A DNA stretch of 64,000 bases from a virus. Position 1 is the stretch's first letter. Every line of letters begins with the position of its first letter. The stretch spans positions 1-64,000 of the IMG/VR virus record IMGVR_UViG_3300024319_000005, one strand, 5' to 3'. Position numbers and translations under genes: made by a program. This document shows positions 17,478 through 53,290 of the stretch, piece by piece. The notes beneath the pieces are model-generated. The model worked only from the letters and a program-made list of their open reading frames with translations, was not told where the DNA came from and searched no databases.

Positions 17478-18602
17478 TTATTTGATTCGGTATTCTTGCA
17501 TACCTTTAAATCCTATTTCTTTATCGTATGAGTAACTTTGTGCTGCCCTCATAGACATATATGCGTTATCTTTATGCCATTTGTCTGTAACACCTAATGA
17601 TGTAAGGTATCTTACTACAAAACCCCTAAACTCTTTCGTTTGTTGGTGGTGTGTGTGACCAAGTATAGCTTCTCTGTATAATGTATTACCCCATAACTTT
17701 GGTTGCTCTGCTGCAAATACGTTAGGGTAATCAGCCATTTTTAATTCTCCGTGTTCAAACATAAACCCTGTAACTCCGTACTGACAATACTGTCTGCTAT
17801 CTTTGTTATTTAAAATGTTTACGTTATCGTTATTCCAAAAGTATCCTTCTACTGCTCTAATCAATGTAAAACTTTCGTATCTATCATGATTACCTGCAAT
17901 GTGATAAACTTCTATAGGTGCTATAGTAGCTAACCAAGAAAGAACATCTATACAATCTTTAAAAGCTGTATCGAAGCAAGCATAAGCGTCAGCAGAATCA
18001 TGCTGAGGAGTACCTTTAGTAGTTGCTTTGCTGTTTCCATCTGAGTTTAATATATCGTTTCCTATTGGTACAATAAACTTTTCTATTGTATTTGTATCAT
18101 ACCTGCTTACTAATTCTGCTACTGCAGTCCTAAAAGACTTACTTGTTATCTCTAAAGGACCTTTTCCATAGTGTAGATCAGGTATAGATAATAACACTGC
18201 TTGGTTAGCTTCGTCTTTAACTTCTAATTCAGGATACTTTGGTGAATGTATTTTAAGAGACTCTATAAGTTCTTCAATTTTACTATCCTCTGCTTCAGCA
18301 TCTTCTATTTTTTCTAGAGACATCTGCATGCTTCCCGAACGACCCCATGCTTTTTTTATTCTAAATCCATCAGGAATATCCATTCCTTCTACTCCTGCAT
18401 AGTAGTTGTTACTATTATCTTCTACTATTGGACCATTATAGTCAGGTGCTAAATTACCTGTCTTTTCATAATACCTCCAAAAATCATTTGCTTGTTTAGA
18501 ATCTTTTAAATCATACTTAATTGCGTAATCATTCCAAGTTCCTTGTTTGTCGTTAGAGATCAAGTCTTTTATAAACTCTACTCGTCTTTCTGTTAAATTC
18601 AT
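17478..18602 (-). CDS. Calcineurin-like metallophosphoesterase
   Basis: This 374-residue protein contains the full set of metallophosphoesterase metal-site motifs: IPDLHYGKG (D-x-H, about residue 135), VPIGNDILNSDG (GND), HIAGNHDRYES (GNHD) and ILGHTHHQ (GHTH). The family hydrolyses phosphomono- or diesters with a binuclear metal centre. The first 60 residues (NDYAIKYDLKDSKQANDFWRYYEKTG) look like a helix-turn-helix DNA-binding region. Related enzymes are frequent in phages and may act in DNA end processing beside the neighbouring RecB/Cas4-type nuclease, much as SbcD-type proteins do. That pairing is an inference. A terminator follows the gene, and a 247-bp spacer with another terminator precedes it. 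Confidence 0.85.
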   Translation of the reverse strand: MNLTERRVEFIKDLISNDKQGTWNDYAIKYDLKDSKQANDFWRYYEKTGNLAPDYNGPIVEDNSNNYYAGVEGMDIPDGFRIKKAWGRSGSMQMSLEKIEDAEAEDSKIEELIESLKIHSPKYPELEVKDEANQAVLLSIPDLHYGKGPLEITSKSFRTAVAELVSRYDTNTIEKFIVPIGNDILNSDGNSKATTKGTPQHDSADAYACFDTAFKDCIDVLSWLATIAPIEVYHIAGNHDRYESFTLIRAVEGYFWNNDNVNILNNKDSRQYCQYGVTGFMFEHGELKMADYPNVFAAEQPKLWGNTLYREAILGHTHHQQTKEFRGFVVRYLTSLGVTDKWHKDNAYMSMRAAQSYSYDKEIGFKGMQEYRIK

Positions 18603-18849: not shown

Positions 18850-19344
18850 TTACTTTGCTATAAGTTCTTTAGTTATTATAGCTACTAACAACATACTAGT
18901 TACTCCTCCACCCCATTCTAACCATTTATTTTTTACTTTTAATTTAGAGTTTTGCCATTTAAGAGCTTTTATTTCATCTTTATATGTAGTATGTACACTA
19001 GCGCAATTATTATATAAATCTTCTATTAAAATAAGTTGTTGGTCTTTTTTATCTATTATAATGTCTTTATCTGCAATTCTACTAGAGTAATTATTTATTA
19101 GTATATCTTTACTTTCCATTAAAGTAGTCATTAAATCTATTCTAGTGTTTTGTGCAGTTACTTCTAGTATTAATAAATTAAGCTCCTCGGACTGCTTATA
19201 TAACAAGTCTATTTGCCACGGTGCCAACTCATACAAACCTGTGTTAGGATTTTTAAACGTAAAATCTTGTGCATTACTTGTTGCTGTCACTAGCATTAGG
19301 GCTGAGATAAAACTCATTATTAAGCCATATTTTCCTTTGCTCAT
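18850..19344 (-). CDS. Spanin-like protein: signal peptide, coiled coil, C-terminal membrane segment
   Basis: This 164-residue protein starts with a signal peptide (LIMSFISALMLVTATSNAQ, cleavage after AQ). A long helical coiled-coil region follows (about 45-140), with a single membrane segment near the C-terminus (TSMLLVAIITKELIA). There is no lipobox Cys. The start lies inside the preceding spanin-like gene (71-nt overlap), typical of Rz/Rz1-type pairs. The topology is reminiscent of a unimolecular spanin, except for the missing lipid anchor. Proposed role: outer-membrane disruption at lysis. This rests on topology and context only. Confidence 0.6.
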   Translation of the reverse strand: MSKGKYGLIMSFISALMLVTATSNAQDFTFKNPNTGLYELAPWQIDLLYKQSEELNLLILEVTAQNTRIDLMTTLMESKDILINNYSSRIADKDIIIDKKDQQLILIEDLYNNCASVHTTYKDEIKALKWQNSKLKVKNKWLEWGGGVTSMLLVAIITKELIAK

Positions 19345-19711
19345 CTGTAAATTCTGTTTTATTATTACTTAAAGAATCTCTAAGTTTGTAAATGTTATCT
19401 AATACTTCTTTGTTTTTAGCTAATTTAGTATAAGCTAAGTTTACTTTTTGATTTAATTGTTTTAGTTTTTCTTCAGATTTTAATATAGTGCTGTTTTTAT
19501 GTTTTATTACAGTAATAAGAACATCTATCCTAGATGTAACACTATCTTTATATATTGAGTGTTCTTTCTTTTCCTTAGTTAAGTTAGAATACAAAGGCTG
19601 CATATAAATATATATATAAATACAAGTGCCTATTGCAATTAAACATATTAAATTCCATAACCATTTAGCAGCTATATAAGGGATAGGTATTTTAATGTTG
19701 ACATTCTCCAT
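19274..19711 (-). CDS. Inner-membrane spanin-like (Rz-type) protein
   Basis: This 145-residue protein has one N-terminal membrane helix (about residues 12-36, WNLICLIAIGTCIYIYIYM) followed by a long charged coiled coil. This is the architecture of i-spanins, which link the inner membrane to the outer membrane for the last step of lysis. It overlaps the endolysin gene by 20 nt upstream and the next spanin-like gene by 71 nt downstream. The assignment rests on topology and gene order; spanins share little sequence. Confidence 0.65.
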   Translation of the reverse strand: MENVNIKIPIPYIAAKWLWNLICLIAIGTCIYIYIYMQPLYSNLTKEKKEHSIYKDSVTSRIDVLITVIKHKNSTILKSEEKLKQLNQKVNLAYTKLAKNKEVLDNIYKLRDSLSNNKTEFTDEQRKIWLNNEFYLSPNASDSNK

Positions 19712-20792
19712 GATATTCTGTGCTTTTTAATTGGGATCTTTTATCAAATACAACTAAGTTTCCTTTTCTAGTATCTATATGTATATGTGAGTTGTACAAT
19801 CCTATACCTGTAATACCAGAACTTTTAATAATTTTTATAATATAAGCTTTGTTAACTACATCACTAACAAAGTTCTCGTGCGCTATTCTACTAATAAAAG
19901 AAATATCAATAGCTCTACCAGCTAAATGCTGGCTATACTTTGCTCCTCCTGCTTTATCATTACATTTTCTGTATCTATATGAAGAGTTAATTAGTATAGA
20001 GCTTCCATAAACAGCTCTGAGCTTTTGTGCAAAAATTATAAGTTTATTATCAAGTCTATGTTTATTTAACCCTACACATTTAGAAAAGAATTCAGATATA
20101 TGAAAGTTATTAGTTATAAAATAGTTATCAGTTTTATTTATTTCTATGAATTTATTAGGACCAAAATTAAGACCAAAAAATATTCTTTCATCAAATGTCC
20201 AACCCATGTTAGCTCTATAAAAAGGAGCCATCATACTATTAGGGTCGTCGCTATGATTTAAACCAAAAATATGACCCATTTCATGAGCAGTAATATTGCT
20301 TATGTTTTTAATGTTTTTATAATAAATCATTAAACTATCAGGAGTATTTTTTCCTGGGGGCATGTCGTAGTTATCAAAAGTAATATGTTGTATCTTACTT
20401 GTATCACAATTGGGGTATGTAGCTCTTGCTAAAGTGCCATCTATCCCATCCATGTACTCGTATTTAATTACTAAATCTAATTTTTTTGAAGTACTAGAGC
20501 TTGGTAATTCTTGAACATATTTATTAGCAAGTATAGCTGTTTTTTTTATAGCTAAATCTATATCTTTTTTCACTAAATTAAAACCATCTACTGGAGACTG
20601 ATTTGAATGTTTATAAAATATAGTGTCTATTGCTTTAAAACTACACATTGCCTGTCTGAATTGGTCTTCAGATTCTATAGGGGAGTTATGTAGTACAGTT
20701 GCTACCGCCATCATTTGCCTGTGCTTTATACTTTGACCATTGCAACAGTAGGATAAAGCTATGCAAATAAATAAAAAAATAATATTTTTCAT
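19692..20792 (-). CDS. Exported dual Zn peptidase: matrixin-like plus M15 peptidase (endolysin candidate)
   Basis: This 366-residue protein has an N-terminal signal peptide (IIFLFICIALSYCCNGQ). The first domain (about 30-225) has a complete metzincin site, TAHEMGHIFGLNHSDDPNSM: three zinc His, the catalytic Glu, and a likely Met-turn Met a few residues on (NSMMAP), as in matrixins (M10). The second domain (about 235-366) carries M15 motifs: INSSYRYRKCN, YSQHLAGRAIDIS and SHIHIDTRKG, giving His, Asp and His zinc ligands. M15 enzymes cut peptidoglycan stem peptides. The next two genes are spanin-like, so this is most likely the endolysin. What the protease domain cuts is unknown. Each motif is directly visible; having both in one polypeptide is unusual. 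Confidence 0.85.
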   Translation of the reverse strand: MKNIIFLFICIALSYCCNGQSIKHRQMMAVATVLHNSPIESEDQFRQAMCSFKAIDTIFYKHSNQSPVDGFNLVKKDIDLAIKKTAILANKYVQELPSSSTSKKLDLVIKYEYMDGIDGTLARATYPNCDTSKIQHITFDNYDMPPGKNTPDSLMIYYKNIKNISNITAHEMGHIFGLNHSDDPNSMMAPFYRANMGWTFDERIFFGLNFGPNKFIEINKTDNYFITNNFHISEFFSKCVGLNKHRLDNKLIIFAQKLRAVYGSSILINSSYRYRKCNDKAGGAKYSQHLAGRAIDISFISRIAHENFVSDVVNKAYIIKIIKSSGITGIGLYNSHIHIDTRKGNLVVFDKRSQLKSTEYHGECQH

Positions 20793-20815: not shown

Positions 20816-22948
20816 TTAAAAATATTGAGTCCATACTATTTGTATTTCCTCTGTAGCAGAATCACAATTAGTTGCTGTTACTGTAAAGTCACGCATAGAA
20901 ATATTTGCACTATTACAACCCATAACAACACCAGTATTACCTATTTGTATATCAATTTCATACTCATCTTCGCTAAGTATAGTTGTTGATCCTACAGTAT
21001 CAGTTACAGTCCAAGTTACTGGAATGTCTGAGGTAATAACTGCATGCTCAATCTCAGGTGTACAATCCCCACTACCGGCTTTAAATCTGTAATCTTCACC
21101 TCTATTTCCAAAGCAAATAGGTTCGTCACATAAATCAGCAAGGTTAGTAATTGTTATAGTTGGAGTGACAGGTATACAACAATCTGCCTCTCTAAGGTAA
21201 ATGTTTCCACTATTGCTACCACTAGTTATACTATCTATAAAACCATTAAAATTATATATTTTTAAATAAATACCACTACTATCTGTTTCTATTACTTCTA
21301 TAGAAGCGGCAGCACTACATCCGTTAGCTAGTAAGTATGCTAATAATGCATCTTGATTAACTTGGTCAGTAATTGAAGATAAAGGTGCATAGTAGATTTC
21401 ATTTGTTCCTGCTATTGTTACTCCAAAGTTAGTTGCTGACTCTTCTATAAAAAACATTTGACAATCTACTGTAGCGTCAGTTATACAACATCCACAATTT
21501 TCATATTGAGTTTGAGTTATAGTTGTTACATACTGTTCTCCATTAGAATCAGTTTGTCCTGTAATAGTACAACCACTTGCTGATTCTATTGTATTAACTT
21601 GCCAGCTTAGTCCTATTAAATCTCCATCTGCAAAGTCACATATGTCTATTGGTATATCAAAATTGTTTACTGTAGTGTTACCATCAACCGTAAATGTTTG
21701 ATCAATATTTCCAGTAATATAAGATACATTATTTACATATACAGTATAATCTAAATCTATATCTACTGTAGTGTCTACACACTCACAAGAAGCATCTGTT
21801 AAACTTGTTATTCCTATATTTAAATTAGTACAAGTTAAAGTTTCAGGTACTCCTGAACCGCTAATTTGAAAGTTAATTGATGGATCACAACAGTCTTCAT
21901 TATCAAAAGTTAATATAGTAGGCTGCCCACAAGTAAATCCATTTGTTCCTGTTGGTGTCCACTCTACTTGAAACAATACTTCTGATCCATCTGTAGCATT
22001 CCAAGTAGTAGTAGTTTCTAAAGGTAAGAAAGGACCAGTAGATAGTAAATCTTTGTAAAATATTTGCAAAGTACTCCCTGGTAAATTACAATAAAAGGAA
22101 TCAGTAACCATTTCATATATTGCTGTTGTTCCTCCATTTTGTGTGTTAGTACCGTTACAAGCTGCAGATATCATATTTAGCAAACCACTAGGCATATTAT
22201 CATAAAGATTTAATGAAGTTTCACAAGCTTCTACAGTTTCACTATAATCACCTATAATAGGTGATATAATTAATTTTTGTGTTATTTCAACTCCACACCC
22301 TGGGTCATTATTAATAACCCATCTAGCTATAGTTAATTCTCCACAAGTTTGTTTATCATCTGCTATTCCATTAGTAGTAAGATTTCCTGGTATATTTAAT
22401 GTACTAAAATATAAAAAGAAAACTCGAAAAGATGATGAAGTATAAGCAAGAACTGACCCTGCAATAGGATATGATATTTCTATAGCCCCCCCTGGAGCTA
22501 TAGGTATAGTATTTCCATCGCACCCTCCAATAATAGTATCTAAATCTATATTTTGAGTTCCAAAATTACCACTGTCTACAAAACTACCATCAGAGTACAT
22601 CCAACTATAATCAGAATCTCCTTGTTCTGTTCCATCTCTACATACATATATATCTTCAGCAGGTCCAATCTCTGTAGATGTATCATATATTTCTATACTT
22701 GCTTCTACAGGAGCTGTACAATCCCCATTTTCTACTATATATTCAAAAGTATATATACCTGGAGTTAAACAACTAGAAAGAGTTGCATAAGTAAAAGTAT
22801 CCCCTGTATAGTCTACTGAGTCTAAACAACCCTGATCAGTTGAATCTATAGTAAAAGTTACACCTCCTGTAGGTTGAGATACTTGAGTCCAAGTACCTCC
22901 TGGAGTATAGCCAGGGTCTAATAAACTACTTAAACAAAATTGCGCCAT
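20816..22948 (-). CDS. Adhesin-like Cys-rich Ig-domain protein C
   Basis: This 710-residue beta-rich protein has many Cys. The N-terminus begins inside an Ig-like repeat (FCLSSLLDPGYTPGGTWTQ, then a LTPGIYTFEYIVENGDC strand), the GGTW...PGxYxFxY pattern of large flavobacterial surface adhesins. Further segments repeat WT, GTNG and CDxxI-type motifs and Cys pairs. There is no signal peptide or sorting domain, so it is probably a virion fibre or appendage component, not a secreted protein. It is separated from the gene before it by a strong terminator, unlike the other members of this cluster. Receptor binding is inferred from position between fibre genes and lysis genes. Confidence 0.65.
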   Translation of the reverse strand: MAQFCLSSLLDPGYTPGGTWTQVSQPTGGVTFTIDSTDQGCLDSVDYTGDTFTYATLSSCLTPGIYTFEYIVENGDCTAPVEASIEIYDTSTEIGPAEDIYVCRDGTEQGDSDYSWMYSDGSFVDSGNFGTQNIDLDTIIGGCDGNTIPIAPGGAIEISYPIAGSVLAYTSSSFRVFFLYFSTLNIPGNLTTNGIADDKQTCGELTIARWVINNDPGCGVEITQKLIISPIIGDYSETVEACETSLNLYDNMPSGLLNMISAACNGTNTQNGGTTAIYEMVTDSFYCNLPGSTLQIFYKDLLSTGPFLPLETTTTWNATDGSEVLFQVEWTPTGTNGFTCGQPTILTFDNEDCCDPSINFQISGSGVPETLTCTNLNIGITSLTDASCECVDTTVDIDLDYTVYVNNVSYITGNIDQTFTVDGNTTVNNFDIPIDICDFADGDLIGLSWQVNTIESASGCTITGQTDSNGEQYVTTITQTQYENCGCCITDATVDCQMFFIEESATNFGVTIAGTNEIYYAPLSSITDQVNQDALLAYLLANGCSAAASIEVIETDSSGIYLKIYNFNGFIDSITSGSNSGNIYLREADCCIPVTPTITITNLADLCDEPICFGNRGEDYRFKAGSGDCTPEIEHAVITSDIPVTWTVTDTVGSTTILSEDEYEIDIQIGNTGVVMGCNSANISMRDFTVTATNCDSATEEIQIVWTQYF

Positions 22949-22991
22949 TGTATTTTTTTTATTATTAAATAATTAAACTGAAAAAAATAGT

Positions 22992-23031
22992 TATATCCTT
23001 AGAGTAAGTTACGTTATACTCTAAGGATATA
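22992..23031 (-). terminator. Strong intrinsic terminator with 15-bp stem
   Basis: TATATCCTTAGAGTA (22992-23006) and TACTCTAAGGATATA (23017-23031) form a perfect 15-bp stem with a 10-nt loop. On the minus strand it is followed by ACTATTTTTTT. It lies directly after the stop codon of the 240-residue gene (23048), inside the adhesin-like series. Confidence 0.85.
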
Positions 23032-23047
23032 AACTAATGTGTAACTT

Positions 23048-23770
23048 TTAGTTACAAACTGCTAATGAAGTTGCAGTACCTGCTACTAATGCTGCTGTAA
23101 TTTCAAGAATAAATGAAATTACTTGTGTACAATCAGCACAAGATTCATCTACAGTATGGTGCCCACCAGCAACTGATAATGTGTAAGTTACAGTAAAACT
23201 ACCAACTACGGCAGGAGTAGTAAAAGTAATAACACCTGTTGATTGATCTAATGTACCTGGGTTGCCTCCTATTGCCCATGTACCTCCAGATATATAATTA
23301 CCTATTTCGGCAGTAAGATCATAATCTACAGGAAGAGTTGCTTCACAAAAAGTAAGATCCGAAGTAGGTGCTGTCATATTTGGACTATCAACTACTTCTA
23401 TTTCAAAACAAGTAGTATCTCCACATTCAGTTGGAGTAATTAACTCACCATCTTCTGGATTATTATCTCCTACAATATATGCAAAACCATAAAACCCTGC
23501 TGATGCTCCTCCAAAATCAATAGTTTCTTCATCAGGTTCTAGTTTTATTTGAGGATTTACACTAAAGAGTGTACCAGGAATTTCAGTATAGGGGTTACTA
23601 GTATCTATTGGAGCTATTGCAAAGTGATCTTGAATTCCAAAACAAGTACTATCTTCACCATTTGCAGGTACTTGACTACCTGTACTAGTACTCACGTATC
23701 CTAAGTATACAAAATACCCTCCTGTAGATTGATTAGTTAATTGATCATTTAAATTTATTGAACAAGCCAT
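23048..23770 (-). CDS. Adhesin-like Ig-domain protein B
   Basis: This 240-residue protein lacks a signal peptide. The first half is a beta domain. The second half is one clear adhesin Ig repeat: LTFCEATLPVDYDLTA, SGGTWAIGGNPGTLDQSTG, VVGSFTVTYTLSVAGG, CADCTQ. The protein ends with AGTATSLAVCN, the first strand of what would be the next repeat, cut off right after the conserved VC. The much larger protein A ends the same way. Its start follows the preceding gene by 33 nt. It is probably a short capsid- or tail-borne adhesin subunit. Confidence 0.65.
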   Translation of the reverse strand: MACSINLNDQLTNQSTGGYFVYLGYVSTSTGSQVPANGEDSTCFGIQDHFAIAPIDTSNPYTEIPGTLFSVNPQIKLEPDEETIDFGGASAGFYGFAYIVGDNNPEDGELITPTECGDTTCFEIEVVDSPNMTAPTSDLTFCEATLPVDYDLTAEIGNYISGGTWAIGGNPGTLDQSTGVITFTTPAVVGSFTVTYTLSVAGGHHTVDESCADCTQVISFILEITAALVAGTATSLAVCN

Positions 23771-23803
23771 TTTAATTTATTTTATTATTAATTTTTAAAA
23801 AAG

Positions 23804-26800
23804 TTAAGAACATACCATTTGAGAACTTCCATTCCCTGCAGATACTGCTTCTGTAATTATTATTGTTATTGTTTCTGCTGCCCCTCCGCAAGATACACAA
23901 CCGTCAAAAATTGGGTATATATTATTTGGAGTAGAAACAGAATATGTAAATGTATATGTGCCAACTGGCATACTATCTGTATTAAATGTAGCTACGTCAC
24001 CTAAAATAAATAATCCTGGGTTACAGTTATTAAAAGCTATTGTGTAATCTCCACCTGCTGACCATACTCCACCTGCGTCTTCTCCTACAAGTAAATCTCT
24101 TAGTATAAGACACTCTGGCTCTATTTCACAAACAAATTGTGTACCTATATCATTACCTGCAGTTCCTGCTGATACAACTTGTACTACTGTCTGTGAAATA
24201 GAAGTACAACCGTCTACAGTAACTTTATTACTAAAAAAGTAAAATCCTACAGCTGCTCCTTCAAAGGTATAAGATGGACCAGAAATATCTCCTGGTGTTA
24301 AAGTAGGTTCTACACCTCCCCAGCCTCCTGTACCAGGAGTACCTATAGCTACTGTTGAAAATCCATCATAACAGAAAATACCTATAACGCTAGTGTTAGG
24401 TGTAAACATGTCAGGATAAACATCTACTACACAAGCTCCATCGTTACAAACAGCTCCTGGTTGAGGTACTCCTGATCCTGGTAAAGGGGTTACAGTAATT
24501 GTTATTGTAGCATCTGTATTACATGCTGAACAAGTACCATCTGTTCCTGTTACAGTAGAAGTAAATGTAAATACCCATTGTCCTGGTACTGTAGGATTAA
24601 AGTCTCCTGTAGTTAAATTATAATCAGGAATTCCTTCTCCCGCAAGATTTTCACTTATTAATACTAAAGATGTAAAATTATTGTCTAAACAATTAGAACC
24701 TCCGTTTATTTCATTAAAAATATTAAACTCAGGATCTGTATTACACTTTACTATTGTAGTATCTGTTATTACACAAGAAGCTTGATATATGTTTACTTCA
24801 AAGTCTACTTCTTTAGGACAAGCATCTCCGTAGAAAGCTCTAAATAAGTAAGTACCTAATGGTGCTTTACCGTTATCCCAAAGTGCAATACCTTCTGGTA
24901 AAAATGACCCTGCATTAAGCAGCATCTCAGATCCATTTATGTTTAAAAATATTGGAGTATAAGGTGCAGTTAATAGCTGTATTTTACTACCTGCAGGCAA
25001 TCCCATTTCAGTATATAAATCATACTCACACCCTGTAGTTGCAGTATTATTAACAATAACAGGATTTGTAGTACAGCTTGCATCTAATGCAGGATCTGGA
25101 CCATATGAGCAGTATACTAAGCATTGTGTAGGTACATCAACAGGTTCTTCTTGTATGTCTACTGTAAGTATAAAAGTATTACTACATCCTGTTTCATTGT
25201 ATATACCTGGGTTAGTTATGTTATATCTAAAGCTATAAGCTCCTGGAGTAACATCTGCAATTATAGTTACACCGTCAGGATTTAGTACATTAGTTTGATT
25301 TAAATCTGTCCAAGTACCTCCAGTTACATTAGCTAATGTATTTAGATTAATAGTATTAGCATCTGTAACACATATACTAGTGTCTAAATCTACAGATTGC
25401 TCTGAAGCAATAACTTCTATATTAACTGTAGTAAATGCATTACAAGGTCCTGACTCTCCAAATTGAAAAGTATAAATACCTGCATTATTAAATACAACAT
25501 TAGGATTACCTATAATATCTCCTACAATAAACTCTGGTGAATTTAAAGTTCCTGGTATATCTGTAACTTCAGTAGTAAATCCTATAAATGACCAAGGTAA
25601 TAGTTCTTCTGATGTTACTAAACTGTTAAGATCTACTACATCATTTAAACAAATAGATATATTAGAAGTTGGTAAGTTAGCATCTGCTACTGTTATAATT
25701 ACATCTGCTTGGTTAGACTCTACTCCTGCTTCATTTCTTAATTTGTATTTAAGTACAGTTGTACCTACAAATCCTCCTGCTATAAAGTTAATTGAATTTC
25801 CGTTAAGTAATGTTTGTACATTAGGATATTGAGTTATTATTAACTCTGTAAATTGACCTGAATCATTTGCTGTTATATCAATGTATCCAGAACTACCATC
25901 AGAAAGCATACATACTTCATTGTCTACTGCTACTGGAGTACTGCCACATTGTGTACCTTGAAATTCAAGTCTACCTGTAGCTAATACACCATCTATTATA
26001 AGAGAGTAGTTAACAAACTCTACGTTTACTAAACCTCCACTATAAGTGTATAGTACTTCTCTATTAATAGTTAAATTAAGCTCTCCGTGTGGAGTTAACA
26101 TATTTGTGCTAGTAACTAAAGTTTGACCTAAGCTTGGTATAAAAGTAAATGAAGTCCAATCTACATTTCCTTCTACTAAATCTTCTAAGTTAATACTTAA
26201 ATTAGATAAACAAGCATCTTCACCGTCTCCTCTGTTAGAAGCTACAGATCTAAAGTTATCTCTATCTATACAATCTTGACATCCAAACGTGTGGTTGTAA
26301 GGTATTATATTAGGTATAACAGTACACTGTATAGGTTGTAGACAAAGTGTAAAGTATGTAGTATACCCTGCACAATCTTTAGCTTTCATTGGTACAACTA
26401 TAATGTTGTTACTTAAAGATATCTGGTATGTAGATATTTTAAATGAGTCTTCTGTAGTAGTTATAACTAAACCATTTTGGACTTGTAAAAACTCTACTGT
26501 AGAATAATCTATAGGCTTACTACAAGGTGTACCTAAGCTTATCGGTGAAGTAGTATAACTTGTATTTATAGCTCTTGGTTGGCATACTATGTCAAAGTTA
26601 TATTTAACTTCGTTATTAATACATATTTCAACATCTATAGTATCTTCTACTGAACATCCGTATTTATTAGTAGCTATTACTTTTAAAGGAGTAGATGTAG
26701 TAGTAATAAATGCACCATCTACATATTCAAGTTCTACTCTATCGTTTATTGATGTAGTAGTAAATATTTGAGAATCTACTATCCATTCGTAAGTAATACC

Positions 26801-27127
26801 AGCTTCATTAGTAGGAGCTTTATATGCTATAGTACATCCATTACAGTCTTCTAAAGGAGATATTCCTCCTTGAGTAAACTGTAGTTCTGCACATACATCT
26901 TCAAACACACTGTCAATTGTAGTAATACAACCGTCAGCATCTACTATCTTTAAACCTATTTCGTTAAAGTTAAGTAAGCATTCGTTGTCACAAAAATCAA
27001 AAGTTGCAGTAATAGTATTATCTAATACTACACTAGAGATAAGTGTAACACAATCAGGTAAAATCCACTCGTGAGTGAATGCTCCTGTTAAATTTTCTAA
27101 TTCATAAACTTTTGTGATATTAATCAT
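23804..27127 (-). CDS. Adhesin-like multi-Ig protein A
   Basis: This is a 1107-residue, Cys-rich protein made of Ig-like or PKD-like beta domains. Typical units read VTGGTWTDL then PGAYSFRYNITN then CSNTFILTVDI, and GGVWSAGGDYT then PVGTYTFTYSVST then CVSCGG. The pattern is that of very large flavobacterial surface adhesins. The last residues are SAGNGSSQMVCS, stopping just after the VC strand of another repeat. It starts inside the preceding small Cys-rich gene (8-nt overlap). There is no signal peptide and no secretion-system C-terminal domain, so the protein is probably virion-associated, mimicking host adhesins to bind host cells or glycans. Function is inferred. Confidence 0.65.
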   Translation of the reverse strand: MINITKVYELENLTGAFTHEWILPDCVTLISSVVLDNTITATFDFCDNECLLNFNEIGLKIVDADGCITTIDSVFEDVCAELQFTQGGISPLEDCNGCTIAYKAPTNEAGITYEWIVDSQIFTTTSINDRVELEYVDGAFITTTSTPLKVIATNKYGCSVEDTIDVEICINNEVKYNFDIVCQPRAINTSYTTSPISLGTPCSKPIDYSTVEFLQVQNGLVITTTEDSFKISTYQISLSNNIIVVPMKAKDCAGYTTYFTLCLQPIQCTVIPNIIPYNHTFGCQDCIDRDNFRSVASNRGDGEDACLSNLSINLEDLVEGNVDWTSFTFIPSLGQTLVTSTNMLTPHGELNLTINREVLYTYSGGLVNVEFVNYSLIIDGVLATGRLEFQGTQCGSTPVAVDNEVCMLSDGSSGYIDITANDSGQFTELIITQYPNVQTLLNGNSINFIAGGFVGTTVLKYKLRNEAGVESNQADVIITVADANLPTSNISICLNDVVDLNSLVTSEELLPWSFIGFTTEVTDIPGTLNSPEFIVGDIIGNPNVVFNNAGIYTFQFGESGPCNAFTTVNIEVIASEQSVDLDTSICVTDANTINLNTLANVTGGTWTDLNQTNVLNPDGVTIIADVTPGAYSFRYNITNPGIYNETGCSNTFILTVDIQEEPVDVPTQCLVYCSYGPDPALDASCTTNPVIVNNTATTGCEYDLYTEMGLPAGSKIQLLTAPYTPIFLNINGSEMLLNAGSFLPEGIALWDNGKAPLGTYLFRAFYGDACPKEVDFEVNIYQASCVITDTTIVKCNTDPEFNIFNEINGGSNCLDNNFTSLVLISENLAGEGIPDYNLTTGDFNPTVPGQWVFTFTSTVTGTDGTCSACNTDATITITVTPLPGSGVPQPGAVCNDGACVVDVYPDMFTPNTSVIGIFCYDGFSTVAIGTPGTGGWGGVEPTLTPGDISGPSYTFEGAAVGFYFFSNKVTVDGCTSISQTVVQVVSAGTAGNDIGTQFVCEIEPECLILRDLLVGEDAGGVWSAGGDYTIAFNNCNPGLFILGDVATFNTDSMPVGTYTFTYSVSTPNNIYPIFDGCVSCGGAAETITIIITEAVSAGNGSSQMVCS

Positions 27128-49305: not shown

Positions 49306-51894
49306 TTAATTAGTTTCCGATTTAGATTTGGAAGTTGCAATCCTTTCTTTAGACTCAATGTCCTTTTCTTTTAGAACTTTTTCATTCTGAAGTTTAGATT
49401 CTTTAATATCCATATCTCTTTCTTTAATGTTTAATTCTCTAGTTTTAATGTCAGCGTCTTGCCCTAATTTAAGCACTTCCATATAATCAGGTACTCCATC
49501 ATTATCAGCATCTTTATCTTCAGCTCTAGCTGTGTTATTCATGGCAGCTATCTTTTCACTAGATGCATTACGCATTCCCATTAACTGTACTTCATGAGCT
49601 TGTGAATCTTCAACTTGCTCTTTTTGCATTTGTGCCATTTTTTCTTGTGACTCCATACTAGCTTGTTGCTGTGCTTGCGCTCTTTCTTGTTGCTTTTGTA
49701 CTTCTACTTGAATTAACTTATGAGTTTCTTCAGCTGATTGACCTGACGTAATTGATTTTAATAACGTAGATACTGCAGCCATTCCTTGTGGATTCTGCGA
49801 AAACGCTTGAGAGTTTTGCTTCATATAGTTTTGATACTCAATATTGTTTCCAGTATTAGTAACAAATACCATTGTGTTTAGCATTTCTACAGATTTATGG
49901 CTTATCTTAAATAATTCTCTAGTTCCATCTTCAAGTAGATACTCTAATGAGTGTTCTTCTTCATCTTCAAGTAATACTCTTTCTGCAAAAGTTCTAAAGT
50001 TAATTAAATAATCATTAAATACATCTGCCCATATTTGAGAGTGTGCAAAAAACAAAGGCTCTGTAATATGGTGAGACTGTGCAATTGCTTGTCTATTATC
50101 AGCCACATTACTTCCTGAACTAAATGCTGCTTGTCTTTGTGGGCTAATACCCATCGCCATAGACATTTCTCTTTCTAGCAACTCTAGTAATTGTTGTAGT
50201 AGATATATTTCGTTAGCTGTTGATAACATCATCCCATGCCCTCCAGGTGTTCTTTGGGGATTTGGTAAGCCAGACACTCCAACTTGCGACCCTGAGTAAA
50301 AGTTTTTACCTAAGTACCTTTGGTATACTAATGCAACCTTTAGTGGGTCATTTATTGTTTCTCCATCTACATCTTTACCTAGTGATTCTGGTATTTGGTC
50401 TATGTCTATGTTTTGTACATACCCTTCGTATTTTGATAACTCTCTATTTTGTATATTTTTAATAAATAAATATTGCAAGTATAACGGCAATGCTCTTTCA
50501 AACATAGACACAGAAGCTGCGTTTCTAGCAGTTAATACTATACCTTTGGTAGACAATGAAAAATTAGAAAATGGATTTTCTAAATTAGTTACTTGATAAG
50601 GTACTTCTCTATACTTTACAAATTTGTTAGAGTCTAATCTAGTTACTTCATACTTACGTGGAACCCATAACGGCTCTACTGAGTATTCTGAATCTTCATC
50701 CATCCACACAAACTTATGTGTCTTATGTCCAAATTTGTTTGTAAACTTAACTTTTTCTGCAGTTTTAGGTATATCAAAATCGTTTCTAACTAGTAATGTT
50801 ACTTTTTCTCCTAATTCATTAATATAAGACATAAAGTATACAGGCTTAAACGCTTTAAACTCAAATCGAGTTCTAGTTACTAACTGATCATCTCTATGTC
50901 CTGTTGTTTGATAAAGCCCATCAGTCTTTTCTCTTTTACCTCTAGCATCGTCATAAAAATCTTCTAGTATAGAATAGTCTTTTTCTGTGTTCTGTATATT
51001 CCTAGATCCTACCCCTAAACTATTACGTTTATCTCTAATTGATGCATTGATAAAAGAATAATCTGCTATTTCTTCATCACTAAGTACGTCTATATATTCT
51101 TCTATAGCTTGTGCTGGTGTAATAGTATCTATATGTGCAATCCAATCTCCTTTGTGTATTCTAGGTTCATTAGGTGATTTATGAAACTTAGTATTCATTG
51201 GGTTCCACACTTCTACCATAGGTGCTCCATGTTTCCAGCCAGAGTGAATAAAGCATCTATCATTTATAATAAGATCTGCTATTGTATCTAGCTCTTTGGC
51301 TTTAGTGTCTTGAGTAGCTTTACAGAACTTAAGTGCATGTGAGTAAAATATTTCCCACTCAGAGCTAAAGTTTTTTGCATTAATATCTTCAGGCTGCTCT
51401 TGTGTAGTAAGCTCTTGGATCATTTGATCTATCTCTGTAGGCTTCATTCCAGCCATCTTACCTTGCATTTCCTGTATCTTTATAGCTACCTTTTCCTCAA
51501 CCGAGGCTGTAAGTGCAGCTAAAAGCTTTTCATTCTTATCTTTTATTGCTTTAGCAGATAAGATCATTACTTTAAAGTCTTCTACCCTCTTAAGCTTCTC
51601 TCCTTTTAATATGTTAACTAGGTTATGTAGTTTTGGATAAGATATTAAATCTTCTTCTACATTAAAGTCGGTATATACACCTAGTGGGTTACATATTTTC
51701 TTAGTTTCTTCTTTTATACTACTAAGGTCACCGTTATATATTTGGTAATTTTTATGTAATCTATCATAGTCATCTACATAACTATCTTTATAGGGAACAC
51801 AATATTCCATATAGTCTACATACCAGTCTTTAGTTTTCTTAGAGTCTGGTACTTTTAAGTTTAACGGTATTTCCGTATTTTTAAATGCCTTCAT
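49306..51894 (-). CDS. Portal protein
   Basis: This 862-residue protein is located after TerL and the chaperonin gene and before scaffold, as expected for the dodecameric portal through which DNA enters the head. The portal-like core has WYVDYMEYCVPYKDSYVDDY near the N-terminus, and a central helical stem region with ISPQRQAAFSSGSNVADNRQ. The C-terminal 150 residues are an extended Gln/Met/Lys coiled coil with an embedded DADNDGVPDYMEV motif (about residue 800). It overlaps the chaperonin gene by 14 nt. The size is typical of the large portals of crAss-like phages. Confidence 0.75.
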   Translation of the reverse strand: MKAFKNTEIPLNLKVPDSKKTKDWYVDYMEYCVPYKDSYVDDYDRLHKNYQIYNGDLSSIKEETKKICNPLGVYTDFNVEEDLISYPKLHNLVNILKGEKLKRVEDFKVMILSAKAIKDKNEKLLAALTASVEEKVAIKIQEMQGKMAGMKPTEIDQMIQELTTQEQPEDINAKNFSSEWEIFYSHALKFCKATQDTKAKELDTIADLIINDRCFIHSGWKHGAPMVEVWNPMNTKFHKSPNEPRIHKGDWIAHIDTITPAQAIEEYIDVLSDEEIADYSFINASIRDKRNSLGVGSRNIQNTEKDYSILEDFYDDARGKREKTDGLYQTTGHRDDQLVTRTRFEFKAFKPVYFMSYINELGEKVTLLVRNDFDIPKTAEKVKFTNKFGHKTHKFVWMDEDSEYSVEPLWVPRKYEVTRLDSNKFVKYREVPYQVTNLENPFSNFSLSTKGIVLTARNAASVSMFERALPLYLQYLFIKNIQNRELSKYEGYVQNIDIDQIPESLGKDVDGETINDPLKVALVYQRYLGKNFYSGSQVGVSGLPNPQRTPGGHGMMLSTANEIYLLQQLLELLEREMSMAMGISPQRQAAFSSGSNVADNRQAIAQSHHITEPLFFAHSQIWADVFNDYLINFRTFAERVLLEDEEEHSLEYLLEDGTRELFKISHKSVEMLNTMVFVTNTGNNIEYQNYMKQNSQAFSQNPQGMAAVSTLLKSITSGQSAEETHKLIQVEVQKQQERAQAQQQASMESQEKMAQMQKEQVEDSQAHEVQLMGMRNASSEKIAAMNNTARAEDKDADNDGVPDYMEVLKLGQDADIKTRELNIKERDMDIKESKLQNEKVLKEKDIESKERIATSKSKSETN

Positions 51895-53290
51895 TATTTA
51901 TTATATAATTTGTGTTTAGGAGTAGCTCATATGATGCAAATGCATTTTTTAAAGATTGTACTATTACTCGTGTTGGATCTATAATACCTTCTTCTAATAA
52001 GTTACATGCCTTTTTGGTTAAAACGTTAATTTCTTCTACAGTCTGTTCTAATTCAGCATTACTTTTAATTTGATATGCAGGTGCAAAGCCTATATCTTCG
52101 ATTAGAGAGCCTTTTGCAGCCTCTGCTAGGGCTATACCTCCCCCCTTAACATATCCTCCCTCTATGGCAGCCTGTACGGCTCCTAGGGCATCTTCTATCC
52201 TATCGTATTCTTCCTGTCTGTTCTTTTCGGTTGCACCTCCTACATAAATAATAGCAGTAGAGCCTCTTAACTTATTTATTCTAATCTCAGCAAATCTTTT
52301 TTCGTGGTCTTCTATATACCCATCAAACGTTGCTTCTACTTCCGCTATTCTTTTTTCTATACCTTCTTTACTTTCTGTAAAAATAGTAAATGCTACTGGA
52401 GTTATAATAATCTTATCAACCAACCCTTGCTCATTACGTAGTGCTTCTATATCTCTATAATTCTCTACCATATTTCTACCCCAACCTGGAGCTTTAACTA
52501 AACAAGCTTTTAGTCCTTTAGTCATGTTACCGTAAACAGTAGATATAACTGCAGGAGAAAATCCTGGAGAAATAATTACTAATGGTGCATTTAATTTATT
52601 AGCGTGCTCTATAGCTTGTATGTATAAGGATGGATCAGACGATTTGTTTTCATCGATAACAACTAAAGCGTTTTCTAGGTTACAGTACCCATTACGTTGA
52701 TTCTTAAACTTTTCAGAGATATACCCTGTGTTACCAATAAATTCTACACCACTTGCTACTTCGTAGTAAGTCTCAATAGACTCTTCATCTTCTTCTAGTG
52801 TTACTCTAGACTCTAGACCTACTTGCTCGTATACTGTCTTTAGTATTTTTCCTACTTCTTTAGAGTTACCTGACGTAGATGCAATTGCCTCTAGTTCATC
52901 TAGTGTAGTAAGTTCTTTTGAGCTTTCTAGAACTTTATCTATTACTGTTGCTATTTCTGTTTGCAATGTAGTTACATACTCTCTTGTATTACTAGGGATT
53001 TCCCTATTAGCCATTGCTTTTAATAATACTGACGTTGATGTAGTACCATCACCACATTCTTCTACTGTTTTCTGAGCTGAGTTAATTACTAACTGAGCAC
53101 CTATATCTTCTATAGGGTTTCTTAACTTTATTTCTCTTGCTACTGATACTCCATCTTTAGTAAATCTAGAATATCCATTTCTGTTAATTAAAACGTATTT
53201 ACCGTGAGCACCCATTGTTGAGGATACTACATCGGCAGCCTTAGACAAGCCTACTAATACTTCTTTTTTTGTGTCTATGATTCTGGTCAT
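51881..53290 (-). CDS. Phage Cpn60 chaperonin (GroEL family)
   Basis: This 469-residue GroEL-type protein is about 80 residues shorter than bacterial GroEL. All ATPase signatures are present: TKDGVSVAREI, ECGDGTTSTSVLL (the GDGTT loop with catalytic Asp), GGATEKNRQEEYDRIEDAL (catalytic Asp) and GGYVKGGGIALAEAA, with DPTRVIVQSLKNA near the end. The shortening seems to fall mainly in the apical and intermediate regions and the missing C-terminal GGM tail. It starts 50 nt inside the end of terL and overlaps the portal start by 14 nt, so it is translated within the head operon. Proposed role: folding of capsid or other large virion proteins, alone or with host or phage GroES. Phage GroELs are known but uncommon. 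Confidence 0.9.
   Translation of the reverse strand: MTRIIDTKKEVLVGLSKAADVVSSTMGAHGKYVLINRNGYSRFTKDGVSVAREIKLRNPIEDIGAQLVINSAQKTVEECGDGTTSTSVLLKAMANREIPSNTREYVTTLQTEIATVIDKVLESSKELTTLDELEAIASTSGNSKEVGKILKTVYEQVGLESRVTLEEDEESIETYYEVASGVEFIGNTGYISEKFKNQRNGYCNLENALVVIDENKSSDPSLYIQAIEHANKLNAPLVIISPGFSPAVISTVYGNMTKGLKACLVKAPGWGRNMVENYRDIEALRNEQGLVDKIIITPVAFTIFTESKEGIEKRIAEVEATFDGYIEDHEKRFAEIRINKLRGSTAIIYVGGATEKNRQEEYDRIEDALGAVQAAIEGGYVKGGGIALAEAAKGSLIEDIGFAPAYQIKSNAELEQTVEEINVLTKKACNLLEEGIIDPTRVIVQSLKNAFASYELLLNTNYIINNEGI

Follow-up and report, generated by a model that had tools for sequence, protein, structure and literature searches.

A predicted Sec-exported matrixin-M15 endolysin fusion in the lysis region of a crAss-like phage

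The DNA analysed here, hereafter the window, comprises positions 1 to 64,000 of the 99,222-bp virus record IMGVR_UViG_3300024319_000005 of IMG/VR. The results showed that it carries an uninterrupted open reading frame (ORF) of 366 amino acids, in which a matrixin-type metalloprotease domain is joined to an M15 peptidase domain behind a probable N-terminal signal sequence. Matrixins are proteases akin to the human matrix metalloproteinases (MMPs). Both halves belong to known families; the joined architecture is unusual, and it stands in a plausible lysis setting. We consider it probable, judging from the sequence, that the gene encodes a Sec-exported two-enzyme endolysin, the matrixin half of which most likely cuts an envelope protein.

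Results

A matrixin domain and an M15 peptidase domain are joined in one predicted exported protein

The ORF occupies positions 19692-20792 and is read on the minus strand, from 20792 to 19692. Its features are as follows.

19692-20792, minus strand: fusion gene, Sec signal plus matrixin (M10) plus M15_3 endolysin domain, 366 aa (ORF, Pfam, PHROG)
20736-20792, minus strand: probable Sec signal peptide, residues 1-19 (hydrophobic core IIFLFICIAL and cleavage-like CNG before Q, read by eye)
20157-20639, minus strand: matrixin catalytic domain, residues about 52-212, Pfam core 112-195 (Pfam, AF2 topology, Foldseek to MMPs and karilysin)
20253-20285, minus strand: zinc motif HEMGHIFGLNH, residues 170-180 (sequence; ligand columns identical in 35 viral matrixins)
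20217-20237, minus strand: Met-turn SMMAPFY, residues 186-192, with Met188 (Met column invariant in 35 viral matrixins)
19767-20117, minus strand: M15_3 peptidase domain, residues about 226-342 (Pfam, alignment, AF2, Foldseek)
19905-19934, minus strand: M15 motif SQHLAGRAID, residues 287-296, ligands His289 and Asp296 (alignment)
19773-19787, minus strand: M15 motif HIHID, residues 336-340, ligand His338 (alignment)

An earlier model-made reading of the letters (the sequence-only reading) had described a 366-residue protein at this place with HEMGHIFGLNH, a Met-turn, SQHLAGRAID and HIHID, leaving the strand unstated, and this description was borne out. The domain search that it had proposed found Peptidase_M10 (PF00413) at residues 112-195, with 46.4 bits against a Pfam gathering cut-off of 24 (E 5e-12; 47.5 bits in the genome-level search), and Peptidase_M15_3 (PF08291) at residues 248-340, with 60.2 bits against a cut-off of 23.2 (E 2.4e-16). 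Residues 218-348 also matched PHROG_894, annotated 'endolysin', with an E of 5e-22. At the N-terminus, a Sec-type signal sequence was recognised by eye (MKNIIFLFICIALSYCCNG, followed by Q). The claim that one exported protein carries two metallopeptidase domains was upheld, with both domains above the Pfam cut-offs and the signal peptide read by eye.

The zinc ligands and the base of the matrixin were all present (His170, Glu171, His174 and His180), with Met188 as the Met-turn. In the M15 half, His289, Asp296 and His338 were present, in alignment columns that are invariant with phage endolysins. With its full set of ligands and its Met-turn, the matrixin half is predicted to be probably catalytically competent. 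Alignment showed that the MMP structural-zinc ligand, the His in LAHA, is replaced by Arg in the fusion matrixin (LARA); besides this change, no sign of decay was seen in the sequence of either zinc site. The MMP-type cysteine switch (PRCGxPD) was not found in the sequence of the fusion protein. A structural zinc site and a cysteine switch are features of vertebrate MMPs and are not obligatory for all matrixins.

Structure prediction was performed with AF2. A single-sequence model with a pLDDT of 32 was set aside, and a model was built on an alignment of 46 sequences, including 35 viral matrixin and 10 M15 fragments. The mean pLDDT of this aligned model was 65.9, with values of about 77-93 in the M15 domain and 35-75 in the matrixin half, where the active helix reached about 71-74 and the loops 35-55. 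The N-terminal half of the model showed metzincin topology. In Foldseek searches against the PDB, this half matched MMP catalytic domains and Tannerella karilysin (E 2e-4 to 4e-4, probability 1.00, TM-score (target) about 0.44, with loops of low confidence), and the C-terminal half matched the Zn DD-peptidase 1LBU; against BFVD, the C-terminal half matched phage M15 peptidases. The sequence-only reading had named a missing zinc site in a predicted structure as the finding that would count against it. No such loss was seen: both folds were recovered by Foldseek and all ligands were conserved, the matrixin model being of moderate confidence.

The fusion was found in one phage species

The region was 99.95-99.99% identical at the DNA level over 12-17 kb in two further IMG/VR assemblies, and all three contained the same unbroken ORF. 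The fusion is not an assembly chimera, as the frame runs through without a stop and the two other metagenome assemblies carry the region in near-identical form. These three near-identical assemblies represent one phage species, the only one in which the fusion was found; they exclude a chimera but carry no information on selection.

Searches for relatives of the full fusion protein, the matrixin fragment or the spanin-like protein described below returned only near-identical copies. Two narrow pattern scans of IMG/VR yielded a set of at least 152 viral matrixin ORFs in 122 clusters. Two of the 152 matrixin ORFs listed were the window phage's own copies, and among the matches listed none of the 150 others carried an M15 domain, the doubtful ones having been checked by Pfam. 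Three flags for a fused protein raised by a regular expression were rejected in this way, as Pfam shows no M15 in L106 and L152 and puts the M15 of L054 in a separate downstream gene. When the C-terminal half was used instead, 80 M15 loci were recovered, and no metzincin motif lay within 3 kb at any of the 79 loci other than the window phage's own. These other M15 relatives were mostly single-domain, and a few had a lysozyme-like module in front.

Among the matches listed in genome contigs and plasmids, where the genome listing held no Bacteroidota locus, the fusion did not occur. Searches of the open-access literature on matrixins or metalloproteases and phage lysis found no description of a matrixin-M15 or matrixin-endolysin fusion. 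A tblastn search of INPHARED with the matrixin half returned only contigs named 'Acinetobacter phage MD-2021a'; CAKLQH020000026 and CAKLQF020000029, which bear this name, carry grpE, dnaK and purK and look like host chromosome, and the matches were rejected as such.

The fusion gene stands at the endolysin slot of a crAss-like phage

The record encodes a crAss-like TerL, portal and major head protein (PHROGs 6681, 6547 and 11589), plus a GroEL-like protein. By TerL, the nearest named isolate was Cellulophaga phage phi14:2, with 28.7% identity over 94%. Judged by TerL, portal, major head protein and gene order, the source is a crAss-like phage (Crassvirales). A GroEL-like chaperonin of 469 aa lies directly between the terminase and portal genes (window 51881-53290), and phi14:2 has one at another position.

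In phi14:2, the genes run in the order virion protein, gp4-like tail protein, IHF, virion protein, metallophosphatase (g075), small TM protein (g076) and endolysin (g077). The order in the window matches this, and the matrixin-M15 gene stands at the g077 endolysin slot, beside the counterparts of g075 and g076. The endolysin that phi14:2 has in this slot is of GH19 type, 187 aa long and without a signal peptide. The neighbours in the window are listed here.

17478-18602, minus strand: metallophosphoesterase-type gene, syntenic marker beside the lysis slot, counterpart of phi14:2 g075 (PHROG, synteny)
18850-19344, minus strand: 164-aa protein with signal peptide, coiled coil and C-terminal TM, overlapping the 145-aa gene
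19274-19711, minus strand: 145-aa protein with N-terminal TM followed by a coiled coil, spanin-like, overlapping the fusion gene by 20 bp

Neither the 145-aa nor the 164-aa protein had a PHROG or Pfam family above cut-off. The sequence-only reading had placed spanin genes next to the fusion; the TM segment and coiled coil seen in the sequence of the 145-aa neighbour agree with that claim, but PHROG and Pfam lent it no family support, and no outer-membrane lipoprotein partner or spanin family match was found for this protein. By its sequence features, the 145-aa neighbour is a plausible spanin, and the 164-aa protein is a possible second lysis or spanin component.

A profile search showed that the M15 of the fusion gene is the only one in the 99-kb record. 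GH24 and Amidase_2 had no match in the record, with positive controls that worked; the GH19 and GH108 profiles also had no match, but the controls for both gave none either. In the window phage no gene was recognised as a holin, which counts against a two-enzyme endolysin, as do the restriction of the fusion to one species, the varied contexts of viral matrixins in general, the low-confidence loops of the matrixin model and the lost structural-zinc ligand. A lysis role, which the sequence-only reading had proposed, is suggested because the gene shares the endolysin-slot synteny of phi14:2, a spanin-like gene overlaps it tightly, and no other endolysin was found in the record among the families tested; pairs of matrixin and M15 in the lysis cassettes of other phages, described in the next section, support it as well.

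Just upstream of the lysis gene, at 20816-27127 of the window, are three proteins of 1107, 240 and 710 aa with a repetitive, surface- or adhesin-like look. The 1107- and 710-aa proteins had no Pfam or PHROG match.

Separate matrixin and M15_4 endolysin genes lie side by side in other phages

In three IMG/VR loci (L015, L032 and L054), a holin-like segment of coil plus TM, a matrixin scoring above the Pfam cut-off and an M15_4 endolysin follow one another. In L015 the holin-like segment is a gene of its own, and in L032 and L054 it forms the N-terminal part of the matrixin protein. The matrixin and M15_4 genes overlap by 9 bp in L015 and by 12 bp in L032. A similar membrane-anchored matrixin was found in L092, whose contig stops just beyond. 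The matrixins are homologous across all four loci (about 28-37% identity), and L015, L032 and L092 also share homologous flanking tail genes. By these sequence comparisons, the four loci are one old lineage retaining this arrangement. Among L015, L032 and L054, the matrixins are 31-37% and the M15s 39-41% identical to one another, and with identities this low the arrangement therefore outlasts deep divergence. Within the M15_4 lineage, three of six members have the matrixin, and the other three of that M15 family are without it.

Like the window phage, L015, L032 and L054 have both predicted enzyme activities, there consecutive in a late lysis module. Unlike in the fusion, the two are separate proteins, the matrixin being anchored as a lipoprotein or via coil plus TM. 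The window fusion and this pairing probably arose separately, since the M15 subfamily differs (M15_3 in the fusion, M15_4 in the pair). As for the distribution among phages, which the sequence-only reading had suggested checking, the fusion itself was found in one species and the unfused pair was seen in three divergent phages.

Discussion

Proposed function and alternative explanations

We propose that Sec would export the protein to the periplasm, as its signal sequence suggests, and that the C-terminal M15_3 domain would cut peptide bonds of the peptidoglycan, as its family membership and the endolysin synteny suggest. The M15 domain would hold the matrixin, the second and proteolytic activity, at the wall. 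There the matrixin would most likely cut an envelope protein that otherwise holds the outer membrane or the wall together after the peptidoglycan has been cleaved, and such cleavage would assist the spanin-like neighbours. The sequence-only reading had offered a surface layer, a gliding adhesin or a wall-linked lipoprotein as candidate substrates, or maturation of the enzyme by itself, and the sequence does not discriminate among these. Processing of its own chain by the matrixin would be less likely.

This last possibility is the core of the main alternative, which we regard as unlikely and in which the protein is a self-controlled endolysin: an exported zymogen whose matrixin cuts the pro-segment at residues 20-51 or the linker near 212-225, releasing or activating the M15 domain and timing lysis without a holin. 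A Sec signal on an endolysin calls for a brake, the phi14:2 endolysin in that slot has no such signal, and a short pro-like stretch at residues 20-51 and an interdomain linker are present. Metzincins are commonly made as zymogens; among bacterial relatives with a solved structure, karilysin is the closest. However, the MMP-type cysteine switch is absent, and matrixin and endolysin are separate proteins in L015, L032 and L054, so cis-processing is not common to the pair. Cleavage of an envelope protein is preferred for this reason, because the protease of that other lineage is separate and membrane-anchored, and self-processing is thus not the common denominator. We think it improbable that the M15 domain alone works and that the matrixin is a catalytically weak passenger which binds proteins of the wall or envelope and takes the position of the lysozyme or wall-binding module of other M15 endolysins. 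Some M15-family relatives are indeed bimodular, with a lysozyme-like N-terminal module by sequence (L170 and L205), and one structural-zinc ligand of the matrixin is lost; but the matrixin retains every catalytic ligand, Glu171 as general base, the Met-turn and the APFY that follows it, and drift in a non-enzyme would not keep them.

Other phages have matrixin domains in virion proteins (the tape-measure protein of L152 and a tail-fibre-like protein in L151), and the neighbours at 20816-27127 resemble surface-repeat structural proteins, which would fit a virion-borne protein that works at entry, where it would cleave the wall and a surface or adhesin protein. This explanation is highly improbable in our estimation, as it is opposed by the signal peptide, the position in the phi14:2 endolysin slot, the overlap with membrane and coiled-coil genes and the lack of a virion family match; moreover, g076 and g077 lack the MS/MS detection mark that neighbouring structural genes carry in the phi14:2 record. 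An artefact, either a chimeric contig or a miscalled frame uniting two genes, is hardly credible: occurrence in a single phage species is the only point found in its favour, and against it stand the ORF, unbroken in three assemblies with the DNA identity given above, and the composition of both halves, which fits the phage.

The accepted scheme of Gram-negative lysis consists of holin, endolysin and spanin and has no dedicated protease. Beyond the preferred function of the window protein, cleavage of an envelope protein, we tentatively suggest, at somewhat less than an even chance, that some phages lyse with two coupled cuts, by a matrixin in envelope-tying proteins and by an endolysin in the wall. 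Such coupling would have been reached separately at least twice, by fusion to M15_3 and by adjacency to M15_4, and would functionally resemble Listeria Mtz. If true, phages of outer-membrane bacteria would have, in envelope-protein cleavage, a distinct lysis step that has gone unrecognised. With one protein holding both enzymes and with adjacent pairs elsewhere, the need for envelope proteolysis in lysis becomes directly testable. The proteins are also candidate two-activity lytic enzymes, and the proposal could assign a use to some of the numerous matrixins encoded on viral contigs.

Comparison with known systems

In the Listeria Mtz-Tim system, a secreted metzincin is paired with a TIMP-like lipoprotein, and in prophages Mtz often lies downstream of the holin-lysin genes (PMC8235301). 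When Mtz and Tim were co-expressed, cells became more susceptible to lysis by phage and released more virions, an effect that needs protease activity (PMC8235301). The unfused matrixin-M15_4 pairs agree with this published case. The likeness to the window protein lies in Mtz being a phage-associated secreted metzincin, encoded in prophages near holin-lysin genes, whose protease activity with its partner promotes lysis, whereas Mtz has its own gene and a Gram-positive host, needs the lipoprotein Tim and is not fused to an endolysin.

Phage M15 endolysins (PHROG_894, Peptidase_M15_3, 1LBU) share with the fusion the C-terminal domain, its ligands and the position in the lysis slot. Most of these relatives consist of a single domain (about 115-135 aa), and the bimodular ones combine it with another wall hydrolase instead of a matrixin. 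Karilysin of Tannerella forsythia resembles the matrixin half in HExxHxxGxxH, the Met-turn, the Foldseek match, its nature as a secreted enzyme of Bacteroidota type and the lack of a cysteine switch; it is, however, a bacterial secreted protease, whereas the window matrixin is joined to a phage wall peptidase. The lysis region of phi14:2 (g075-g077) has the same gene order around the endolysin slot as the window, but its endolysin is the 187-aa GH19-type enzyme without a signal peptide.

Matrixins in other viral contigs

Matrixin genes were frequent in viral contigs (at least 152 ORFs, L012-L164), mostly of 140-250 aa, many with a signal or lipobox-like N-terminus, and in varied gene contexts. 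Among the matches listed, 3 of 98 downstream neighbours matched an endolysin family, all from one lineage, and the apparent enrichment of endolysins beside viral matrixins was not accepted as holding generally. Other viral matrixins adjoin topoisomerase, terminase, baseplate or fibre genes. A viral matrixin does not generally signify lysis, and the link between matrixin and lysis stands on the two separate cases plus the literature.

Several of these proteins showed other architectures. In L152 (1572-8768), a tape-measure protein of 2,399 aa (PhageMin_Tail) contains a matrixin domain and is a possible entry protease, and in L151 a matrixin domain lies inside a collagen-like, fibre-type protein. 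In L065, L106, L080 and L144, the matrixin protein begins with a PG_binding_1-like domain and bears a cysteine-switch motif resembling PRCGxxD, as vertebrate MMP zymogens do; L106 additionally has three ChW repeats. Two adjacent, diverged matrixin-like genes were found in L085 (7759-9083), the second with the motif RELGHELGLPSF, in which zinc-binding His residues are changed; this suggests a duplication with one copy inactive.
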